IMG/VR virus record: IMGVR_UViG_3300047322_000147 | Span: 1-21,820 of that record | Source: a virus | Length of the DNA stretch: 21,820 bases | Strand: one strand, 5' to 3' | Shown: positions 2,268 to 17,736 of the stretch, one piece after another | How positions within the stretch are numbered: the stretch's first letter is position 1 | Layout of the letters: every line of letters starts with the position of its first letter | Position numbers and translations under genes: made by a program | Notes under the pieces: generated by a model | What the model was told of the DNA's origin: nothing | Database searches by the model: none | The model's input: only the letters and a program-made list of their open reading frames with translations

Positions 2268-2467
2268 TCGAATCAGTCATCACACTGCTGATTTACATCT
2301 GCGTCTTGGCGCTGGTGGTTTATCTGATCATCTATGTGCTAGGCGTTGTCGGCATCGCACTCCCGCCCAAGGTTGTTCAAATCATCTGGGTAATCGTGAT
2401 GCTGGTGGTTATCCTAATGATACTTAGGCTAGTTCTGCCAGGCATCGGACATGGGCATTTCTACTGA
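2264..2467 (+). CDS. two-transmembrane small membrane protein
   Basis: A 67-residue, extremely hydrophobic protein. Segment 1 is at residues about 4-30 (VITLLIYICVLALVVYLIIY and on). After LPPKV comes segment 2 at residues about 37-59 (VVQIIWVIVMLVVILMILRL). The end is polar (PGIGHGHFY). The ATG lies inside the last codons of the previous gene (ATGA overlap), and its stop overlaps the next start (TGATG). The topology resembles small holin-like or uncharacterised phage membrane proteins. Without a nearby endolysin I leave function open. Confidence 0.65.
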   Translation: MIESVITLLIYICVLALVVYLIIYVLGVVGIALPPKVVQIIWVIVMLVVILMILRLVLPGIGHGHFY

Positions 2468-2610
2468 TGCTGGATAACCCAATCGTCATGATGCACGGTC
2501 TATGGTGGTTAGCGTTGCATTTCATGGTGATTCCGGCCATCATCATCATATTGTTGACGATAGCCTCGCTGTACGATGAACTAGACGAACACAAGAATTG
2601 GCACCACTAG
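2467..2610 (+). CDS. 47-residue single-pass membrane peptide
   Basis: The ATG overlaps the previous stop (TGATG). The translation starts MLDNPIVMMHGLWWLALHFM, continues with a hydrophobic run (VIPAIIIILLTIASLY) and ends with an acidic, His/Trp tail (DELDEHKNWHH). It is followed by GATAACTGCA and the ATG of the next gene. The hydrophobic span of about 25 residues and the exact fit between two genes support coding. Family unknown. With the 2264 product it forms a pair of adjacent, coupled small membrane proteins, an arrangement seen for holin/antiholin pairs but also for many others. Confidence 0.5.
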   Translation: MLDNPIVMMHGLWWLALHFMVIPAIIIILLTIASLYDELDEHKNWHH

Positions 2611-2620
2611 GATAACTGCA

Positions 2621-2878
2621 ATGGCAAAAGCTGGTCAGAACTGGTCGAGCAAGGAACATCAGGCACATAAGGCGAGCCATGCGCCGCAGGTCGAGCATGG
2701 GGAATATTTTGTGAGAGCAAGTAGTAGATCGGGTAGGAAAATAGCCGAGTGGGGTCCGCATCCTGATCGTGAAACTGCTGCTAGTGAGGCATGGCAAAAA
2801 CATCCAAATGCAAAGCAGGTTTCAACTGCTAGAGGTCCGCATGGTATGGATATACGGTGGCATAATAAGCCATCATGA
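2621..2878 (+). CDS. small protein sharing N-terminal motif with 1083-1316
   Basis: An 85-residue protein. Residues 1-28 (MAKAGQNWSSKEHQAHKASH, then VEHGEYF) match the start of the 1083 product closely. The remainder is different: FVRASSRSGRKIAEWGPHPDRETAASEAWQ and HPNAKQV look like a small alpha/beta unit of the kind that carries W.P...R..A...A........V. The two genes therefore share a swapped or duplicated N-terminal module with different C-terminal halves. The final ATGA overlaps the start of the O-antigen ligase-like gene. Function unknown; hydrophilic and probably cytoplasmic. Confidence 0.68.
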   Translation: MAKAGQNWSSKEHQAHKASHAPQVEHGEYFVRASSRSGRKIAEWGPHPDRETAASEAWQKHPNAKQVSTARGPHGMDIRWHNKPS

Positions 2879-3951
2879 TCTTCGGCTTCCTGCTTGCCAT
2901 CTGTTTCAATCCCTACATTTACACCGCTGCAACCAACCCTCGTTGGTCTCTACTGGCTATTGCACTCCCGATAATGATTTGGGTTTCATCACCTAATCAT
3001 TTCACATTAAACCACCTATTGGGCTTGATCTTTCTGGCATGGAGCGCGTTTACCTTACTATGGACTGCAAACCCTCTAGATGGCGCGTCAAGCCTGATTC
3101 AGTTATCAATAGCCGCAATGGCATTCGTGCTTGGCGCTCGTTCACCTTCGTTGAGACCGATACTTGGCGGTCTCGCATTAGGAATAGCGGTAAGCAGCCT
3201 GATAGTGCTGTTTCAGATAGAAATCCCCGGCCAGATCATATCGACAAAGATAGAAGGACTGTTCGGCAACCGTGACATGCTCGCGGAGACTGCGGCGATG
3301 GTCCTGGTTGGTTGTATTGGATACAGATTATGGTGGGCGATCCCTGGGTTATTGCCGAGTTTGCTGATAACTCCAATGGCCCGGGCTGCGCTGATTGCAA
3401 CTGGCATTGCTGGATTGGTATGGGGGTGGTACCGCTATCCCAAATTAATCAAATTGTTAGCGTTATTGAGTTTCTTTGTGGTTCTCATATTGATCAATGC
3501 GAGGCCCAAAGGCGTCTTAGAACGTTGGGATGTTTGGACAGACGCGGTAAAGGGTTTAACATTAGTAGGACATGGACTGGGATCATTTCAGACGCTATTT
3601 CCTTTCCTTACCCACCACTTTGATGGCATCGACGTAGTTGTGGATCATCCGCATAATGACCTCCTGGAAATCTGGTTTGAAACGGGGTTTGTTGGATTTA
3701 CGTTTGCCCTCGCATGGATTGCGATTACCTTGGGAAGTGCAGACAATGTTTCGCGTGGCATCCTCACTGTATTCTTTGCGGTGGGCATGTTCGCGTTTCC
3801 TATCCATGTTCCTACGGCGCTTTTCCTGGCGGCACTGGCTGCCGGCCATGCTGCTAGGCGCGGGTTTGTTTTATGGGGTAACGATCACAGCAAGCGATTT
3901 GATCTTCGTCCGTGGTATGAACGCGGAGATGAGCCCGAAGGAGCGTATTGA
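2875..3951 (+). CDS. O-antigen ligase/polymerase-like membrane protein (Wzy_C superfamily)
   Basis: A 358-residue polytopic membrane protein with about ten hydrophobic segments. Family motifs are in order: GLFGNRDMLAE (128-138), PMARAALIA (168-176, the S/AR.A pattern), ERWDVWTDAVKG then GHGLGSF (216-238), and HPHNDLLEIWFETGFVG (258-274), the hallmark HN..L....E.G..G motif with H260 in the periplasmic loop. Family members (WaaL, Wzy, PglL) join or polymerise glycans on the periplasmic side of the inner membrane. In a phage this suggests alteration of host surface polysaccharide, as in serotype conversion and superinfection exclusion by O-antigen-converting phages. The ATG overlaps the previous stop (ATGA). 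The last about 35 codons are also read in another frame by the next gene. The residues after about 330 are hydrophilic and probably not part of the core fold. Confidence 0.85.
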   Translation: MIFGFLLAICFNPYIYTAATNPRWSLLAIALPIMIWVSSPNHFTLNHLLGLIFLAWSAFTLLWTANPLDGASSLIQLSIAAMAFVLGARSPSLRPILGGLALGIAVSSLIVLFQIEIPGQIISTKIEGLFGNRDMLAETAAMVLVGCIGYRLWWAIPGLLPSLLITPMARAALIATGIAGLVWGWYRYPKLIKLLALLSFFVVLILINARPKGVLERWDVWTDAVKGLTLVGHGLGSFQTLFPFLTHHFDGIDVVVDHPHNDLLEIWFETGFVGFTFALAWIAITLGSADNVSRGILTVFFAVGMFAFPIHVPTALFLAALAAGHAARRGFVLWGNDHSKRFDLRPWYERGDEPEGAY

Positions 3952-4276
3952 CGCTTTCAGGTTGTCGGCCAAGCTTGACCCGTTTGATATGGGAAAGCGC
4001 AGGGCCTCGGCTATAACGATGTCAGATATGGCGGTACAAAATCACGATGAAGGTTGGCTTAAGGCGGCACAGATTGAAAACCGCGCCGCATTGGAAATAG
4101 ATTTTACAAATGCTGGCCTGCTAGGTCGCGCTATTCTGGTTGACGTTGCATTGCACGATAATATCGAGGCATCGGCTTATTACAGGCAGTTCAAGAGAAT
4201 AGATCGCAAAGGAATAATTGAGAATTGGTGGCTGGTCCATCAAGAAGGCAGTACGCCCGTCGCTGCCAAACCCTGA
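3848..4276 (+). CDS. membrane-anchored helical-repeat-like protein overlapping the ligase gene
   Basis: From the ATG at 3848 the protein has 142 residues. A hydrophobic anchor (LLGAGLFYGVTITASDLIFV) is followed by an alpha-helical domain: AFRLSAKLDPFDMGKRRASA, then QIENRAALEIDFTNAGLLGRA. The spacing and A/L/P placement resemble the TPR-like periplasmic part found with or fused to Wzy_C ligases. The start is uncertain. ATG 3806 would add a basic N-terminus (FLRRFSWRH) typical of a signal anchor. ATG 3746 has GGGAAG eight bases upstream. A start at 3917 would delete the anchor. With 3848 the gene overlaps the ligase by 104 bases in the +1 frame. It probably sits in the inner membrane facing the periplasm and may be the ligase's partner. 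The coding frame is convincing downstream of 3951; the start is not. Confidence 0.62.
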   Translation: MLLGAGLFYGVTITASDLIFVRGMNAEMSPKERIDAFRLSAKLDPFDMGKRRASAITMSDMAVQNHDEGWLKAAQIENRAALEIDFTNAGLLGRAILVDVALHDNIEASAYYRQFKRIDRKGIIENWWLVHQEGSTPVAAKP

Positions 4277-4298
4277 CGCGGCTTTAGGAGCAACCAAG

Positions 4299-4898
4299 AT
4301 GAAGCTAAAACATCTCGGCCTCGCCGCTGCGGGGCTTATTGCTATTACTACGGGAGCCCTTGCTGCCGGTCTGTGGCCGGATTTTCCCATAGTGGGTAGT
4401 GCGAGCTATTGCGCCGGCACTTCCTCATCGGCTACCGGCACGATCATTGGTGCGGTGACGGGTTGCCCAAATACCGTTCCTGCCGGTCCGACCATCCTAA
4501 CTGGTAATGAACAGATCCCGGCTGATACCAGACTATCGAGTGGTGCCAATCCGCAAACCGTATTGATCCCGATGGCATCCCTTAATGCGCTGCCGATCCA
4601 GGTTTATACAGTTACTTCGACGGCCAACATCAGTGCGGCCAATAACTCGGGCGGCGTCTGCTTTACCTACTCAACGACGATTACGGCGGCTAACATTACG
4701 CTTCCGTTGAGCCCGATAGACGGACAGCAATACGCAGTATGTTCCGATCATACCATTACGACACTGGTCGTTGCGGCTGGTACGGGCACTACACTAGCGG
4801 CTACAACGCCAACCGTTCTGACCGCATCCACCACTGCACCGCAGGGCTACAGATTCCTGTACAATGCGGCGCTTACCAAATGGATTAAACTCCAGTAG
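4299..4898 (+). CDS. exported beta-rich protein with signal peptide
   Basis: Start chosen at ATG 4299 because TTAGGAG stands eight bases before it and the protein then begins with a clean Sec signal peptide: MKLKHLGLAAAGLIAITTGA, with cleavage likely after ALAA. An in-frame ATG at 4218 lies inside the previous gene and would bury the signal. The mature 170-odd residues are Thr/Ala/Gly-rich and beta-prone, with four cysteines (e.g. SYCAG, GGVCFTY, YAVCSD) and the ending QGYRFLYNAALTKWIKLQ. The pattern of TLP...DGQ.Y...S......L.V..........P...GYRF.Y.....W..L recurs in virion-associated phage proteins of Alphaproteobacteria as I remember them. Function unknown; export to the periplasm is unusual for a virion protein. 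Confidence 0.72.
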   Translation: MKLKHLGLAAAGLIAITTGALAAGLWPDFPIVGSASYCAGTSSSATGTIIGAVTGCPNTVPAGPTILTGNEQIPADTRLSSGANPQTVLIPMASLNALPIQVYTVTSTANISAANNSGGVCFTYSTTITAANITLPLSPIDGQQYAVCSDHTITTLVVAAGTGTTLAATTPTVLTASTTAPQGYRFLYNAALTKWIKLQ

Positions 4899-4920: not shown

Positions 4921-5409
4921 ATGAAATATCTAATCTGGTTTTGTGCGGTTGCCTTCATGGGCGCGGCACACGCTCAATCGCTGCAAAAGATATGCGTTCC
5001 CACAGGCAACGGTAATTCCTGTCAGGAAGTGACGGCAAAAAATCCTTTTCCGGTGGCAACGATCAGTAGTTATCCGGTGGGCACCATTGCCATTACAGGG
5101 AACAGTTCTGGAACGACTGGCGCTGTTGTCGGAACATTGGCAGCGACAGCTACAGCGACGACTTACATCTGTGGTTTTGATGTCAGTGCTGTTGGCGGCG
5201 TGGCAACGGTAGGACCGATTACGATAGCTGGAACCGTTACTAGCTCGCTAATTTATTATTTAGTATCGACGGCAGCGGGCGTTACTTTAAGCAAGACATA
5301 TACGCCTTGTATTCCGGCTAGTGCCATCAATACCGCTATTACTATTACGACAACTGCTGATGCAACGGCATCCCATGTTTATGTTAATTCATGGGGTTAT
5401 CAGCAATGA
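4921..5409 (+). CDS. second exported beta-rich protein with signal peptide
   Basis: The ATG at 4921 is preceded by GAGG at a spacing of six and yields MKYLIWFCAVAFMGAAHAQS, a typical signal peptide with an AxA site (AHA before QS). Earlier in-frame ATGs (4903, 4909) only add MTMRHR. The mature protein of about 143 residues is rich in Thr, Ala and Val (VATISSYPVGTIAITGNSSG, TLAATATATTYICGFDVSAV) with paired cysteines (KICVPTGNGNSCQEV; YICGF; TPCIP). It looks like an extracellular beta-sandwich. The order signal peptide, Cys-containing beta domain and position next to the 4299 gene suggest the two exported proteins work together. The stop overlaps the next ATG (ATGA). No family recognised. Confidence 0.7.
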   Translation: MKYLIWFCAVAFMGAAHAQSLQKICVPTGNGNSCQEVTAKNPFPVATISSYPVGTIAITGNSSGTTGAVVGTLAATATATTYICGFDVSAVGGVATVGPITIAGTVTSSLIYYLVSTAAGVTLSKTYTPCIPASAINTAITITTTADATASHVYVNSWGYQQ

Positions 5410-5748: not shown

Positions 5749-6258
5749 ATGGCTAAACGATCATTCTCGGCGGCGACCTGGACGCCTACGGCTACCGCCG
5801 ACACTACGGCTCTTGCTAACAGCACTTTCATGTCGATTGGTGCATCAGGAGCAACTGCCGGCCTTAATGTCCTGGAAATCTATCTGGGCGGACAAGCTAC
5901 ATCCAGCGCGGTGAATATCATGCAGTTTGCGCGGGATTCCACGCTGATTGGCACGCCGACTGCTCTTGCGGCTCCAAACAGTGATGGCCCGCTTAATACC
6001 ATGACGGCGGCTCTTGCTGCGGTTCCTATTACGGCGGTTGCCGGTGGCACATCCCCACAACGTTCTGCGGCCACTACTGCGGCCCGCTTGTCACTCACGT
6101 TCAATGCCTTCGGCGGCATCGTGCGATGGGTTGCGGCTCCCGGAGAGGAATGGGGCATTGTTGGTGTTACCGTGAATGTCAGCGAAAGTTCACTGTCAGC
6201 CTATACGGGCGGTTCTGTGGGACTTATGGGAAGTCACGTAGTTTACGAGCCGTTCTGA
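5749..6258 (+). CDS. virion-like beta-rich protein (decoration or tail protein candidate)
   Basis: A 169-residue protein with GAGGAAACCTGAA before the ATG, a strong Shine-Dalgarno. The composition is Ala/Thr/Ser/Gly-rich and beta-prone, without cysteines or membrane segments. It starts MAKRSFSAATWTPTATADTT and contains GLNVLEIYLGGQATSSAVNI, RSAATTAARLSLTFNAFGGI and EEWGIVGVTVNVSESSLSAY. The regular small-residue strands suggest a jelly-roll or decoration-type virion protein. The ending HVVYEPF is typical of a folded edge strand. I cannot place it in a named family. Its stop TGA is immediately followed by the ATG of the glycosyltransferase gene. Confidence 0.68.
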   Translation: MAKRSFSAATWTPTATADTTALANSTFMSIGASGATAGLNVLEIYLGGQATSSAVNIMQFARDSTLIGTPTALAAPNSDGPLNTMTAALAAVPITAVAGGTSPQRSAATTAARLSLTFNAFGGIVRWVAAPGEEWGIVGVTVNVSESSLSAYTGGSVGLMGSHVVYEPF

Positions 6259-7041
6259 ATGCTTCCCATCCCGGCATTGGCAAGCATGAACGTCATGTTT
6301 GCCACGCCCTGCTATGCGTCAAGCGTTACATCCCCATACATGGCCAGTATGTATAGTCTTGCTGGGGATTGTGCTAATTACGGACTTAAAAACAGACTTG
6401 AACTGCATAGCGAAAGCCTGATTACGCGGGGCCGTAATAAACTGGTCGAGAAGTTCCTAGGAGATGAAAGCCTGACGCATCTATTCTGGATTGATGCCGA
6501 TCTGCTGTTCATGACGGAAGCGGTATTCAGGTTGTTACTGGCGGATCATGATGTGTGTGCCGGGGTATATCCCTTAAAGCAGTTTAACTGGCCTGCTGGC
6601 GGCATACCTCAGCACATGGATAAGCGGGAATTTGAGGACAGATATAACCTGTTCCCGTTCTGCCCAATCGAGAACAGGGCCGACGATGACGGGTTCTGCG
6701 AGGTTGTAGCGGCAACAACCGGGTTTATGTGTATCAAGCGCGATGTGTTCATGAAGCTAATGCAATACTATCCGAAACTGAATTATATCCCGGATGGTCC
6801 TCCCAATAATCCCAAGGCACATTTGTGCTGGCGGTTCTTCGATTGCATGATTGATAATGGCGGACGGTATTTGTCTGAGGATTATTCGTTCTGCAAGCTT
6901 TGGAGAGATCTAGGCGGTAAGATTTATGCGGATGTACATTCCAAACTCGATCATCTAGGACAGCATTTGTTTCATGGCGACCTGATGGCTACGTTGCAGG
7001 CAAAATCTGCCGATGTGGTTGAAATAGCCCAATGCCGCTGA
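6259..7041 (+). CDS. GT-A type glycosyltransferase
   Basis: A 260-residue protein. After a short N-terminal extension the core begins VMFATPCYASSVTSPYMASM (12-31). TRGRNKLVEKFL (56-67) and THLFWIDADLLF (73-84) follow, with the DxD motif D79-A80-D81 that coordinates the nucleotide-sugar metal. VCAGVYPLKQF (99-109), ATTGFMCIKRDVF (152-164), LSEDYSFCKLWRDLGG (205-220) and LDHLGQHLF (230-238) complete a GT-A fold: the ED pair as catalytic base region and the late H as a further metal ligand candidate. No signal or membrane segment is visible. Such enzymes in phages glycosylate virion proteins, DNA or host glycans; the target here is unknown. The alternative start ATG 6286 would remove nine non-conserved residues. 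The ATG abuts the upstream stop. Confidence 0.8.
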   Translation: MLPIPALASMNVMFATPCYASSVTSPYMASMYSLAGDCANYGLKNRLELHSESLITRGRNKLVEKFLGDESLTHLFWIDADLLFMTEAVFRLLLADHDVCAGVYPLKQFNWPAGGIPQHMDKREFEDRYNLFPFCPIENRADDDGFCEVVAATTGFMCIKRDVFMKLMQYYPKLNYIPDGPPNNPKAHLCWRFFDCMIDNGGRYLSEDYSFCKLWRDLGGKIYADVHSKLDHLGQHLFHGDLMATLQAKSADVVEIAQCR

Positions 7042-7703
7042 TTTCTATGGGTAGGAGATATTCCGCTGGCGCGCCTGCTGGCGGCACTCTGACAAACGAT
7101 GCCGCCAATGGCGTCGGTTATTCAGGTGGCGGCTCGGTTTCCACTTCTTTTACCATCACGGTTTCCACGACAAAAACGAACGATATTATTATTCTAGGAG
7201 TGATTGTTAACGCCTCTGGCGTGAGTACGATTACTTCCGCTAATGTAACTTGGGCATCGCGAGCCTCCGGCACCGTAAACATTGAGGAATGGTATGGTGT
7301 TTCCGCTGCCATCCTGACAAATGAAGTCATCACCATTACGGTTGTCGGCGGAGCCGCATTCTGTGCTGGCATTGCTCTGGTAATAAACGGAGCGGATATA
7401 AGCAGTCCTCCGACATCGGCGTATGATCCTAATGGATCTTTGCCTGCAACTGGTGCATCCGGCACTCCAAGCGGAATTTCAACAACAAAAAACAAAACGA
7501 TGGTCTATGGCATGGTTCGAGGCAACACCGATGGATCGGTTGCTTCTGGTTATACGGATGTAGCGCCAGGAACGAGGGGCACCTTGTTCATGGCGATGGA
7601 ATATCAAATCTTTTCATCGCCTCAATCCGGCATCGGCATCGCGGACACAATGACCAGCGTTAACGGCTGGCGTGCTGATGCAATCCAAGCATCGGGTCAG
7701 TAA
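7032..7703 (+). CDS. beta-rich structural-type protein
   Basis: A 223-residue protein whose ATG lies ten bases inside the end of the glycosyltransferase gene. It has no signal peptide. After a polar start (MPLISMGRRYSAGAPAGGTL) come repeated short strands: GGGSVSTSFTITVSTTKTND, IIILGVIVNASGVSTITSAN, VTWASRASGTVNIEEWYGVS, AFCAGIALVINGADI. The pattern looks like an immunoglobulin-like or jelly-roll domain of the kind found in tail fibres and glycan-binding modules. The segment TKNKTMVYGMVRGNTDG is characteristic of such folds. It directly precedes the depolymerase-like gene with the stop joined to the next ATG (TAA ATG). A tail-associated or adsorption role is likely; no family is named. Confidence 0.62.
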   Translation: MPLISMGRRYSAGAPAGGTLTNDAANGVGYSGGGSVSTSFTITVSTTKTNDIIILGVIVNASGVSTITSANVTWASRASGTVNIEEWYGVSAAILTNEVITITVVGGAAFCAGIALVINGADISSPPTSAYDPNGSLPATGASGTPSGISTTKNKTMVYGMVRGNTDGSVASGYTDVAPGTRGTLFMAMEYQIFSSPQSGIGIADTMTSVNGWRADAIQASGQ

Positions 7704-9397: not shown

Positions 9398-12300
9398 ATG
9401 CGCGAATCATGGCGCAAGCCACAATGGAACGGCAAAAGGAGAATTGACCATCCGGTAAACTGGACGCATTTGCCGGAATATGACTTCGGTATTGCGTGGA
9501 CTCAGGTTAAGGAGGATTGGGGTCACTCTAACACCTGGTTCATTTATAATCGAGACCGCACTACCAATAAGATCGTTGCCGCGCCGGTTTTCGCCCAGGA
9601 TGTAATAACCGCAACCGGCACCGGGACATACACCTCCAAAGTTTCCTGGAATAATTCCAATAATAAAGTAGAAGTTGTTGCCGGTGGTGGCTGCGGTGCT
9701 ATCGGTGCATCAACTACCACGGGCGGCGGCGGCGGTGCAGGCGGTGGCTATAATAGTATAAGCAATTTCAGTTTTGCCACGCCTGGTACGACAACCGCTT
9801 TATACGGCGTAGGTGTTGGTGGTCACTGGACTTCTTCATCAGTTACCAATGGTGGAGATACTTGGTTTAACTCCGCTGCTTTCCCGGCGAGCGGTACAGC
9901 GGTCGGTGCGAAAGGTGGCCCGTCACCGGCAACATTTAATACCGCAACTGGCGGCACTGCTGCTTTAACAAGCACGTTCTTTCCAACCACGTCGCCACCG
10001 GCAAGAGTTGGTGGCAATGGTGCAAGCGGGACTAGTGCATCGGTAGGAGGAGGCGGCGGCGGTGGTGGTGGGCCAAACGGTGTAGGCGGTAACGCTTCGT
10101 CTAATACTGGCGGCACTGGCGATGGCGGAACGGTAACGGCTGGCGCGGCTGGCAACCCAGGAACTGCCTTTGCTGGAAAGCAATTCGGCACATCGCTTCT
10201 AGCCGTAGGCATCGGTGGTGGCGGCGGTGGTTCAAATGCGTCCGCAGGCAAGGGCGCAACAGCTATTGGTTATGGCGGCGCAGGTGGTGGCGGTTCAAGA
10301 TCAAACAGCACATTAGCGGGTGATGGTTTTCAAGGTGTTGTTGTTCTTTCATGGAACATTGCCGATAGACCTGACGGAATTGATTTTCCCAATCCGACCT
10401 CCAAGAAAATACCGACCGATCAGTTAACCATTGCCGAAGCTGGTAATGCCTTAACGGCACCGGCAGTTACAACAACGACACTGCTAGGCGCGGTCGAGGA
10501 TTGGCTAGATTTAGGTCGTCGCACTAGGGTTGATCTTCTTACTTGGCTCAATACCGGGACCGCGCTGCTTAATGCGCTGGCACCATTTAGTCAGGACGAT
10601 TGGCCAAATCCTAAAGGACCAGCACCACAAGAACTAACGCATATCGACCAGGGAATATTGACGCTGCCGACCGTTACGGTTGCGCCTAATTTCCTAACTG
10701 ATTGGCCAAATCCGAAAGGAGCAAAATCCAACCAACCTCTGAGTTGGTCATCGCGAGCGCAGATCACCGCGCCGGTTGTCACGGCTCCGTTTGGTCAGGC
10801 TAATTGGCCGCTGCCAAATCGCGGTCTGCCTCTCGATTATGGCTCAATTGATCAAGGCTTCCTGCCGCCGACGCAAGCGCCGGGACCGCCATTACCGCCG
10901 ATCAACTATGATTGGCCCAATCCTCGCGGTTATCTATACCCGACAGACCTGCGGACGTTCATCAATCAGGGGTTGCCCTATCCGGTCACGTTTGCCCGTG
11001 CGCCAGCGTTCCAGGCTCTTTATCGCTCGCAGGCAAATGTCCGGTGGGATCAGCCGCCAAATATTGTCATCAAGACAACAGTTGCAGCGCCATTCAATCA
11101 AGATGATTGGCCATTACCGACTAAGGCAAAAGCCAATCAATCGCTAGGCATTGAACGTGGTCCGCAGATCACGCCTAATCCATTTAATCAGGATGACTGG
11201 CCGCTACCGACAGGAGCAAAATCTAATCAGCCGTTTAGCATCTCGCTACGGCCTCAGATCACACCAAATCCATTCAAGCAGACGGAATGGGTAAATCCAT
11301 CAGGTGCCAAGGCAAATCAACCGCTCGGACTAACGACATGGCCGCAACTTACCAGCGCCAATAATCCGTTCAATCAATTCGATTGGGCATTACCAAAAGG
11401 AGCAAAATCTACACAGCCGCTATCGGCCTGGGGCATTCCGCAAATTACTCCCAATCCGTTCAATCAAGATGATTGGCCCAATCCAACAGGTGCGAAGGCT
11501 AATCAGCCATTCTCGGTCGTCAGAACGCCGCAGATCACGCCAAATCCGTTCTCACAGACCGATTGGCCGCTCGCGGTCACGCTACGCCGCGCAATCGACA
11601 CATGGATTCCTACCAATGTCGCATTGGCCTCTGCCATCGCCCAGGTCGTACCGTTCAATCAGGATGATTGGCAGAACCCAAGAGGCGCAACACCAAATCA
11701 ATCGCTTGGCCTGTCCGGCCATGCCCAGATCACGCCAAATCCATTCAGTCAGTCGGATTGGCAAAACCCGCGAGGTTCAAGACCTAACCAGGCGTTAGGC
11801 ATTAATGCCGCACCGCAAATCCAGACAACGGCATCCCCGTTCGTTCAATCGGATTGGCCTAATCCGTTAGGAAAGAAATCAAATCAAGTTCTGGGCATCA
11901 GTCGCAGCCCGCAAATCAAGATCAATCCGCAAGCGTTTGTACAAACCGATTGGCCGGTTCCTAAAGGTCCACAGCGTGCAATTGATCTGCTTACGCTTAC
12001 TAATGCAAATGCTATACATTACCCGGAACCTGTACCGAATATTGGGCCTTTTGATTATCCCAATCCGAAAATACCGCCGCCTCTTAATTGGTCGTTCCGC
12101 GCAAGTCCTTATATTCCGGCACCTATACCACCCCCGCCTGCCGCACCTGGAGATTATTTCTTCAAATTCAATGACCAAACTGACGCATTTCTTGATCCAA
12201 TAGTCGGTCCAAGACTCGCTCTTCCTGGCAAACTTATCCCAATCTGGATCTATGATACCAGCAAGCAAAGTGCGGAAGTAGTTGATGGCTGGTGGTGCCT

Positions 12301-12514
12301 GTTAGTTGTAGACGCTCCCGTTCCTTCGTCAATTTCTCAGCATCCAAATCTGCAATTTGCTTTGGATAGGCAAGCTGCATTCACGCCGGGATATGCTCAT
12401 GGACAGGGTACGATTATCATTATCAATAATCTTATTCCGCCAATTGAACTGAGTTATTTCCAAATCGTGTCGCCAATGGCTCCAGTGGCCTATGCAAATG
12501 CCGGGATACATTGA
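9398..12514 (+). CDS. giant fibre protein: glycine-rich domain plus WPxP repeats
   Basis: A 1038-residue protein. Residues 1-67 are an aromatic N-terminal region that may dock to the tail. Residues about 68-320 form a glycine-rich domain (GGGGGAGGG; GGGGGGGGGP; IGGGGGGSNASAG; GYGGAGGGGS) ending in FQGVVVLSWNI, the usual end of glycine-rich phage-fibre and adhesin domains. Residues 330-925 contain about 16 units of D/N/E-W-P-x-P-x-G; the most regular are 30-32 residues (FNQDDWPLPTGAKSNQPFS, then PQITPNP). Residues about 935-1038 are a globular tail (YFFKFNDQTDAFLDPI, then WWCLLVVDAP). It probably is a host-recognition fibre or a scaffold for the neighbouring depolymerase. Unusual in lying upstream of terL. 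The stop overlaps the terL ATG (TGATG). Confidence 0.78.
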   Translation: MRESWRKPQWNGKRRIDHPVNWTHLPEYDFGIAWTQVKEDWGHSNTWFIYNRDRTTNKIVAAPVFAQDVITATGTGTYTSKVSWNNSNNKVEVVAGGGCGAIGASTTTGGGGGAGGGYNSISNFSFATPGTTTALYGVGVGGHWTSSSVTNGGDTWFNSAAFPASGTAVGAKGGPSPATFNTATGGTAALTSTFFPTTSPPARVGGNGASGTSASVGGGGGGGGGPNGVGGNASSNTGGTGDGGTVTAGAAGNPGTAFAGKQFGTSLLAVGIGGGGGGSNASAGKGATAIGYGGAGGGGSRSNSTLAGDGFQGVVVLSWNIADRPDGIDFPNPTSKKIPTDQLTIAEAGNALTAPAVTTTTLLGAVEDWLDLGRRTRVDLLTWLNTGTALLNALAPFSQDDWPNPKGPAPQELTHIDQGILTLPTVTVAPNFLTDWPNPKGAKSNQPLSWSSRAQITAPVVTAPFGQANWPLPNRGLPLDYGSIDQGFLPPTQAPGPPLPPINYDWPNPRGYLYPTDLRTFINQGLPYPVTFARAPAFQALYRSQANVRWDQPPNIVIKTTVAAPFNQDDWPLPTKAKANQSLGIERGPQITPNPFNQDDWPLPTGAKSNQPFSISLRPQITPNPFKQTEWVNPSGAKANQPLGLTTWPQLTSANNPFNQFDWALPKGAKSTQPLSAWGIPQITPNPFNQDDWPNPTGAKANQPFSVVRTPQITPNPFSQTDWPLAVTLRRAIDTWIPTNVALASAIAQVVPFNQDDWQNPRGATPNQSLGLSGHAQITPNPFSQSDWQNPRGSRPNQALGINAAPQIQTTASPFVQSDWPNPLGKKSNQVLGISRSPQIKINPQAFVQTDWPVPKGPQRAIDLLTLTNANAIHYPEPVPNIGPFDYPNPKIPPPLNWSFRASPYIPAPIPPPPAAPGDYFFKFNDQTDAFLDPIVGPRLALPGKLIPIWIYDTSKQSAEVVDGWWCLLVVDAPVPSSISQHPNLQFALDRQAAFTPGYAHGQGTIIIINNLIPPIELSYFQIVSPMAPVAYANAGIH
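10582..12069 (+). repeat. degenerate tandem repeat encoding WPxP units
   Basis: Within the fibre gene. Unit starts (CCATT or CCGTT followed by CAATCAAGATGATTGGCC-like sequence) lie at 11090, 11180, 11270, 11366, 11456, 11546, 11651, 11741 and 11837, giving spacings of 90, 90, 96, 90, 90, 105, 90 and 96 bases, all multiples of three. Units before 11090 and after 11940 are more diverged and less regular. CAGATCACGCCAAATCC is nearly identical in several copies, so recent duplication or recombination among units is likely. Confidence 0.85.
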
Positions 12515-16321: not shown

Positions 16322-17104
16322 ATGGCTGATGAAGAAGTAAAACCAAATGAGGAAGTCGCACAGGCTGCTCCTGAGACAGTTGCGGAAGTTCCAGCAGAGG
16401 ATAAGCAGGAGGAACTGCCGCTTGCCGCCGAGTCTGCCAAACCAGAGGTTAAACCAGAAGAACCACCAAAAGAAGAACCAAAGCCCGATTGGCGTGAGCG
16501 CGAGTTAAAAGCCAAACATAGACAGTTACAGGAAGCCAAGCGCCGCGAAGCCGAATTAGTACGCGAACGCGACGATGCTAGGGCTCTTGCTGCGAAATTC
16601 AATCAGGGCAAGGAAGCATTACCGGAAGTCGTCCCTGCCGATGAAGTGGAAAAACGGGCACAGCAGTTAGTTGCTCAACAGCGATATGTCGAGGATTGTA
16701 ATAAGGCAGCGCAGACAGGCGAAAAGCAATATGGTACTTCGTGGAAGGAAGCCATCGAGAACCTCGAAGTTCTTGGAGGCTTCGATCAGGATACCATGAA
16801 CGGTGTTCTTGCCAGTGACGATCCGGCCAAGGTGCTTTACGAATTGGGTAAAAACCCGGACCGTTACCGTCAAATCATGGAAATGCCGCTGCCAAAACGC
16901 ATTATTGAAATGGGTAAACTCGCCATGCAGCCAACACAAGTTAAGAAGGTTTCAGATGCTCCAGCCCCTGTTAACCCGGTAGGTGGCAGGGCTGCGCCAG
17001 CGGCGACAACGCTTAATGATGAAATGGACGATGATAAGTGGTTCCAGACAAGGCGGGCGCAGCGCCGCGCCAAGTGGGAACAGGAACATGGAATCAGACG
17101 GTAG
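16322..17104 (+). CDS. scaffolding protein
   Basis: A 260-residue protein with GCAAGGAGATGTAA before the ATG. It is very acidic and Pro/Glu-rich at the N-terminus (KPEVKPEEPPKEEPKPDWRE), then a long charged coiled-coil (RERELKAKHRQLQEAKRREA, continuing to about 95), a middle helix region (ADEVEKRAQQLVAQQRYVED), and a C-terminal basic tail (KWFQTRRAQRRAKWEQEHGI). A disordered acidic start, coiled coil and basic coat-binding C-terminus are the classic scaffold plan (P22 gp8 binds coat through a C-terminal helix-turn-helix). Position between portal and coat confirms it. It nucleates procapsid assembly and is released before packaging. Its 3' end overlaps by 11 bases, tail to tail, the antisense endonuclease gene. 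Confidence 0.85.
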   Translation: MADEEVKPNEEVAQAAPETVAEVPAEDKQEELPLAAESAKPEVKPEEPPKEEPKPDWRERELKAKHRQLQEAKRREAELVRERDDARALAAKFNQGKEALPEVVPADEVEKRAQQLVAQQRYVEDCNKAAQTGEKQYGTSWKEAIENLEVLGGFDQDTMNGVLASDDPAKVLYELGKNPDRYRQIMEMPLPKRIIEMGKLAMQPTQVKKVSDAPAPVNPVGGRAAPAATTLNDEMDDDKWFQTRRAQRRAKWEQEHGIRR

Positions 17105-17672
17105 GACGTTTTGCCTTACCGGCTTTTGTGGCCTCCGATGTTCTTTTTCGTTCTTCTGGATTAAGGTAACGGCGTTTTTGGGATTCTGATTGAATACGCC
17201 TTTGTTCTGGATCATCCCAACGGGTACGGATAGGATTTCGTAAATCACTATCAGGATTGGCCCATGATCGTTTTAAGCTTTCAGACTGTTTCTTTCTTGA
17301 AATATCTGTTGGACTAAGCCTTCCAGTTGTTTCGTCTCTTGCTATTAAATAGTTATAACAATCCCGGCTAAGTATATGGCCAAATTCTGCGGCATCTGCC
17401 ATTTCCTTAGAAAACAGACCATCTTGTAAGATATTATATTGGAATGATATTTTGCCGTGAGTGTTCCAATCTTGCTGTAATTCGGCACACCAATGTTTGT
17501 TGGTCATTAGTGCGCTTTTATGGGTCCACCAACGCTGTCGAGGATTGATGGTTTGACCGATATAGCATTTGCCGGTCATTATAAACCGTATTTCATAAAT
17601 AAAATGCTGGCGTCCCGGCGCGTTATCCGGTGCGGCGTCTCGGCGCTTTGAACCCGATGCATATTGATCCAT
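17094..17672 (-). CDS. GIY-YIG homing endonuclease with NUMOD3-like tail
   Basis: The only clear minus-strand gene. Start chosen at ATG 17672 (192 residues) because GGGAGGGG lies five bases before it; an upstream ATG at 17714 has no such site. GIY-YIG catalytic elements are in order: FIYEI (24-28), KCYIGQT (35-41), R47 and H51 in RQRWWTH, and E96 in MADAAEFGHI. The C-terminus has two basic segments of the NUMOD3 kind (SRKKQSESLKRSWANP; RIQSESQKRRYLNPEER), which bind DNA in T4-type SegA-like and I-TevI-like enzymes. Free-standing versions cut a neighbouring site in phages lacking the gene and spread by recombination. It lies exactly between scaffold and coat and is transcribed against them. 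Confidence 0.88.
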   Translation of the reverse strand: MDQYASGSKRRDAAPDNAPGRQHFIYEIRFIMTGKCYIGQTINPRQRWWTHKSALMTNKHWCAELQQDWNTHGKISFQYNILQDGLFSKEMADAAEFGHILSRDCYNYLIARDETTGRLSPTDISRKKQSESLKRSWANPDSDLRNPIRTRWDDPEQRRIQSESQKRRYLNPEERKRTSEATKAGKAKRPTV

Positions 17673-17676
17673 CAAA

Positions 17677-17684
17677 CCCCTCCC
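17677..17684 (-). promoter_or_regulatory. ribosome binding site deciding the endonuclease start
   Basis: On the minus strand the bases read GGGAGGGG, followed by TTTG and the ATG at 17672. This is a strong Shine-Dalgarno and supports translation from MDQYASG rather than from the earlier MHHGWVS start. It also shows that the gene has its own translation signal. Confidence 0.65.
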
Positions 17685-17736
17685 GTTGAACGGAGACACC
17701 CAACCGTGGTGCATCGCGGTTAAGCTTTCAAGCTAT

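Follow-up and report, generated by a model that had tools for sequence, protein, structure and literature searches.

A predicted Wzy_C glycan ligase and an overprinted TPR partner form a conserved gene pair in diverse phages

A phage gene for a predicted Wzy_C-family membrane enzyme (gene 1) is overlapped by a +1-frame gene for a membrane-anchored TPR protein (gene 2), whose start falls within the coding sequence of gene 1. This arrangement was found in all 18 distinct pairs from 17 IMG/VR contigs of uncultured phages, the window included, with identities down to 26%. The window, the whole stretch of DNA analyzed, comprises an entire IMG/VR record (21,820 bases) and represents a fragment of a P22-like podovirus. 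Judged from its sequence, gene 1 is a member of the Wzy_C family in a new, overprinted two-gene architecture, and we tentatively favor the two genes as a two-subunit periplasmic glycan ligase that would work on host lipid-linked glycan and act as a phage O-oligosaccharyltransferase on exported phage proteins. The pair occupies the following positions in the window.

2875..3951, + strand: gene 1, predicted Wzy_C/WaaL-fold membrane glycan ligase or polymerase, 358 aa (PF04932, profile, and AlphaFold)
3646..3660, + strand: HPHND motif, residues 258 to 262, with H260 (3652-3654) as the presumed catalytic His
about 3806..4276, + strand: gene 2, N-terminal transmembrane (TM) helix and predicted periplasmic TPR domain, +1 frame (AlphaFold and conserved overlap)

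The start of gene 1 overlaps the stop of the preceding gene (ATGA). Residues 164 to 277 matched PF04932 (Wzy_C) in the Pfam scan with an E value of 3e-7 and 30.8 bits, below the cut-off of 31.7, and the same match reached 36.1 bits, above the cut-off, in the genome search; 12 of 16 gene 1 relatives matched the family as well (best E value, 6.6e-12). With a profile of six relatives, the top solved chain was WaaL of Cupriavidus metallidurans (PDB 7tpg/7tpj; E value of 1.5e-4 for 7tpg), and R170, R217, and H260, the second His of HPHND, aligned with R191, R265, and H313 of 7tpg. The spacing of the Arg/Arg/His residues also agrees with that of R215, R288, and H338 in Escherichia coli WaaL, which were reported to be important and whose counterparts are kept in PglL (PMC3643930). 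H260 was invariant in the 16 relatives, and each Arg was kept in at least 90% of them, R217 being missing in locus L001 and R170 in L035.

The AlphaFold model of gene 1, made from the alignment of the relatives, was of moderate confidence (pLDDT 70, pTM 0.73). Its best fold match was 7tpg (VIA-align Z of 14.8 over 280 residues), followed by FtsW and RodA (Z of 8.1 to 11.8), which places gene 1 in the GT-C polymerase/ligase superfamily. Residues 332 to 358 had a pLDDT under 50, and the C-terminal tail is variable and was modeled as disordered. Unlike WaaL, gene 1 is phage-borne, lies outside an LPS locus, and has an overlapping TPR partner gene; it is also shorter than 7tpg and shares 15% identity with it. 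The sequence-only reading had described an O-antigen-ligase-like protein with the Wzy_C motifs, including HPHND with a candidate His, and this was borne out by the PF04932 match and the alignment of H260 with H313 of WaaL. The comparison with WaaL structures that it proposed gave the fold match above, and the periplasmic catalytic loop, whose loss it held to speak against the assignment, was present in the model together with the WaaL fold, with residues 247 to 257 of the loop at low confidence. No match to PF15864 (PglL_A) or PF11846 (Wzy_C_2) was obtained in Pfam scans of the window protein (E value up to 1) and the 16 relatives (E value up to 0.01), and gene 1 is therefore not filed as PglL; no informative match of gene 1 came from the PHROGs either.

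Several starts are conceivable for gene 2, of which ATG 3806, present also in L004, is preferred to ATG 3746 and ATG 3848. The overlap with gene 1 amounts to at least 104 nt, and to 146 nt if ATG 3806 is used; the conserved part of gene 2 begins with the TM helix at 3848. A 212-aa open reading frame from TTG 3638 was rejected as the gene 2 protein, the codon divergence following the gene 1 frame until the start of the TM helix. The model of gene 2 (pLDDT 89) consists of a single long N-terminal helix and then three helical hairpins, and its top PDB matches were all TPR proteins (TM-score up to 0.78 by target; best E value, 2.5e-3). One member of the gene 2 family matched TPR_16 with an E value of 3.1e-5. 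The residues before the TM helix (MFLRRFSWRHW) are basic, and by the positive-inside rule, the N terminus should lie inside and the TPR domain should face the periplasm. The confident TM and TPR model and the recurrence of the pair across phages thus uphold the earlier description of the next gene as a membrane-anchored, TPR-like protein.

The pair sits between a NusG-like gene (495) and a block of fiber-like genes that precedes the terminase. Its surroundings in the window are marked by these genes.

495-905: phage NusG-like antiterminator (PF02357, E value of 4e-14), found also in L004 at 2860-3267
12511: terminase
13822: portal
17779: major head protein
20568: head-closure protein

The LPS biosynthesis locus that characterizes WaaL is absent here, the pair lying in the phage late region, and the neighborhood survey of the pairs found no LPS genes or glycan gene cluster near any of them. 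A tyrosine integrase was present in 1 of 14 related contigs and a serine recombinase in none of 10, many of these contigs being fragments. The placement of gene 1 in the late region rather than in a lysogenic-conversion cluster, proposed from the sequence, agrees with the position before the terminase, the distance from glycan clusters, and the few integrases. The inclusion of the glycosyltransferase at 6259 in the system was not sustained: the gene is a plausible glycosyltransferase (PHROG glycosyltransferase, E value of 7e-4), but the pairs of other phages lack it as a neighbor, and it was rejected as a component. Two small paralogous open reading frames, at 1083-1316 and 2621-2878, have the common N terminus MAKAGQ(S/N)WSSKEH-AHKA, and the second of these is the one that overlaps the start of the Wzy_C gene.

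Downstream of the pair follow two genes for exported proteins that are candidate acceptors.

4299..4898, + strand: gene 3, Sec-signal protein of 199 aa, candidate acceptor (neighbor analysis)
4921..5409, + strand: second exported protein with the signal MKYLIWFCAVAFMGAAHAQ, possible further acceptor (sequence; no family match)

The gene 3 family adjoins the pair in the window, L001, and L004, with 70 to 71% identity in the latter two, and has members also in L011 and L035; the remaining groups of pairs are flanked by other exported families. A Sec-type signal was called in 11 of the 23 immediate neighbors of the pair versus 16 of 135 other same-strand genes (Fisher P = 1.8e-4), a figure to be read with the crude signal-peptide caller, the relatedness of the loci, which are not independent, and the commonness of exported proteins in these phages in mind. 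The exported proteins matched no Pfam family and mostly no PHROG, save for a weak pectin-lyase match of one, and for gene 3, no homologue of known function was found. In the open literature, no relevant paper was found on a phage oligosaccharyltransferase or on exported phage structural proteins. Many fiber-like proteins with Sec-type signals were observed, in the window at 4299-4898 and 4921-5409 and elsewhere at L012:4448-6004, L012:7306-7926, and L019:9081-9992, among others.

Wzy_C enzymes transfer lipid-diphosphate-linked glycans in the periplasm. In the mechanism that we propose, catalysis would fall to gene 1, a GT-C enzyme with multiple membrane spans from the WaaL/Wzy_C/PglL family, whose R170, R217, and H260 would, from what is known of the family, move an undecaprenyl-diphosphate-linked host glycan. 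Gene 2, translated from its own start within gene 1 in the +1 frame, would hold its membrane-anchored TPR domain, oriented N-in, beside the active site and would most likely recruit the acceptor, and the overlap would couple the amounts of the two subunits and their inheritance. At least one of the neighboring Sec-exported phage proteins, of the gene 3 family or others, would serve as acceptor. The formation of a complex, the host lipid-linked glycan as donor, and the exported phage protein as acceptor are each put forward as plausible parts of this scheme.

Known protein O-oligosaccharyltransferases offer the closest parallels. Their TPR module is fused in PglL and WsfB and encoded by a separate gene, wsaA, beside wsaB (PMC2943079), a comparison for which this review is the basis, as the searches made here retrieved no fused bacterial Wzy_C-TPR homologue. 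WsfB and WsaB/WsaA, predicted to act on S-layer proteins, likewise combine a Wzy_C enzyme with a TPR module, and WsaA of the Geobacillus cluster is a TPR protein of 168 aa from a separate adjacent gene upstream of that of WsaB (PMC2943079). They differ from the phage pair in being bacterial, in belonging to S-layer glycan clusters, and in that no out-of-frame overlap has been described for them. PglL and PilO (TfpO) are, like gene 1, PF04932 enzymes; they are often encoded beside the gene of an exported target, and for PglL, this was so in 21 of 31 cases, outside LPS loci (PMC3643930). In contrast to the phage pair, they are bacterial single-gene enzymes, and the PglL-specific Pfam models fail on gene 1. 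The TPR module of protein O-oligosaccharyltransferases, the location of PglL beside its targets, and the Sec-signal neighbors of the phage pair together favor, with modest confidence, the O-oligosaccharyltransferase reading over remodeling of the host surface; the lack of a PglL-specific Pfam signature and the loss of R217 in L001 count against it.

It is also quite possible, if somewhat doubtful, that the pair remodels the host surface, with gene 1 as a Wzy polymerase of O-antigen or capsule or as a WaaL ligase and the TPR protein as its chain-length or export partner, and thereby excludes other phages or frees the progeny from receptors. The fold of gene 1 is closest to WaaL, and WaaL and PglL are inseparable by sequence alone (PMC3643930). 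The demonstrated phage Wzy proteins considered here act in this way, with O-antigen or capsule as their substrates (PMC4815439 for D3 Wzy-beta; PMC9241936 for the Acinetobacter baumannii prophage WzyPh1). Both are, like gene 1 on this account, phage-encoded glycan polymerases, and their lysogenic conversion genes alter O-antigen or capsule linkage, but neither is described with a TPR partner in the texts consulted, and the relatives of WzyPh1 belong to PF14897 (EpsG), not to the PF04932 family of gene 1. Against host remodeling stand also the lack of a glycan gene cluster near any pair and of a conserved glycosyltransferase neighbor, the few integrases, and neighbors that are exported proteins instead. 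The neighborhood points to glycosylation of exported phage proteins as much as to remodeling of LPS.

The phage enzymes known to alter sugars of the host surface are encoded by single genes for lysogenic conversion. The pair described here, a WaaL-fold enzyme with a TPR subunit, is fixed and overprinted, recurs in very different phages, most of them apparently lacking integrases, and lies beside exported phage proteins. Should the acceptor be a phage protein, the pair would amount to lipid-dependent protein glycosylation encoded by a phage, and if that protein received host glycan, phage products would carry host sugars; should the acceptor be LPS, superinfection exclusion would have a new architecture. 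In both cases, the pairs offer a naturally occurring collection of minimal split Wzy_C/TPR enzymes for direct tests of what the TPR module does, a question that the S-layer enzymes also pose. A fuller version of the O-oligosaccharyltransferase reading, that of a phage family with its own two-subunit enzyme, an overprinted TPR subunit that binds the acceptor, and exported fiber-like proteins that receive host surface glycan in the periplasm, appears rather unlikely as a whole.

Related loci (L numbers) were collected by stepwise searches. The pairs span clearly different phages, as a Terminase_3 gene was present in only 4 of 14 related contigs and the gene families flanking the pair differ. No relatives were found in INPHARED or in two scans of GTDB genomes (queries A3 and A8), and tblastn with three gene 1 proteins gave no match in 50,697 phage records; the plasmid search gave one weak match, a Sphingomonas O-antigen ligase gene in a rhamnose/exopolysaccharide cluster. 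The Wzy_C genes of four more distant loci (L042 to L045), matched only around the HND motif, were without a TPR pair. Those of L044 and L045 (~4001-4400) look unrelated and have no TPR partner, with an apparent HNH-type gene after one of them, and phages thus seem to have acquired such enzymes repeatedly. Contig L011 carries two divergent Wzy_C/TPR pairs (2335-3727 and 5875-7300), a few kilobases apart and both with the +1 overlap, which suggests two different acceptors or donors.

In every pair, gene 1 extends 89 to 299 nt beyond the point where the TM helix of gene 2 begins, and the pair clearly exemplifies a conserved gene overlap in tailed phages. Pairwise codon divergence showed the gene 1 frame to be constrained up to the TM start; past it, variability in most pairs was highest at the first positions of gene 1, which are the third positions of gene 2. 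The end of gene 1 is thus largely unconstrained, and selection there sees the core of gene 2, although this switch is compatible with a frameshift fusion as well. In the window, it falls as follows.

3848..3951, + strand: zone in which the gene 2 frame has taken over the constraint from that of gene 1 (codon-position divergence)

In 10 of the 18 pairs, the TM motif is preceded at exactly 19 codons by a TTG, which itself follows GGAGG by 6 nt; this GGAGG is built from gene 1 codons for Val-Glu-Gly/Ala-Cys-Phe, with Shine-Dalgarno duplex energies of -9.3 to -9.8. In other pairs, including the window (3806) and L004, the TM helix has an ATG some 14 codons ahead of it. When the codons of gene 1 were reshuffled synonymously, the combined P was 4e-7 for Shine-Dalgarno strength and also 4e-7 for a +1 frame open over 19 codons in all 18 pairs, and both values overstate the significance because lineages were taken as independent; for openness of the +1 frame, P ranged from 0.09 to 0.82 per locus. 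The window had no strong Shine-Dalgarno sequence before any start of gene 2 (P = 0.53), and internal initiation is therefore best supported in its relatives.

Programmed +1 frameshifting would instead join gene 2 to gene 1 in a single Wzy_C-TM-TPR protein that resembles the bacterial fusion enzymes, a possibility that we consider improbable. The +1 relation in 18 of 18 pairs, the abrupt passage of constraint between the frames with an unconstrained gene 1 tail, the existence of fused Wzy_C-TPR enzymes (PMC2943079), and the five pairs without an ATG before the TM helix (L016, L019, L020, L032, and L034) are consistent with it. However, these five have a strong Shine-Dalgarno sequence and a TTG at the fixed position, every pair has a +1 frame free of stops for at least 19 codons upstream, beyond chance, and no shared slippery sequence was found by eye at the switch. 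That the overlap is a chance open reading frame and gene 1 the sole gene, as the Ala/Leu-rich Wzy_C C termini that leave the +1 frame open fairly often might suggest, is refuted almost beyond question by the conservation of the gene 2 frame well past the gene 1 stop, the confident TPR fold, and the presence of gene 2 in 18 of 18 pairs.

Two further genes of the window were recorded. The gene at 9398-12514 encodes a fiber-like protein of 1,038 aa with a glycine-rich domain, the C-terminal part of which is common to L004 and L011; the motif DW[PQAV][NLV]P occurs in it 11 times, mostly about 30 to 70 residues apart. Between the open reading frame 16322-17104 and the major head gene, a GIY-YIG endonuclease gene lies on the - strand (17094-17714) and is probably a homing endonuclease.
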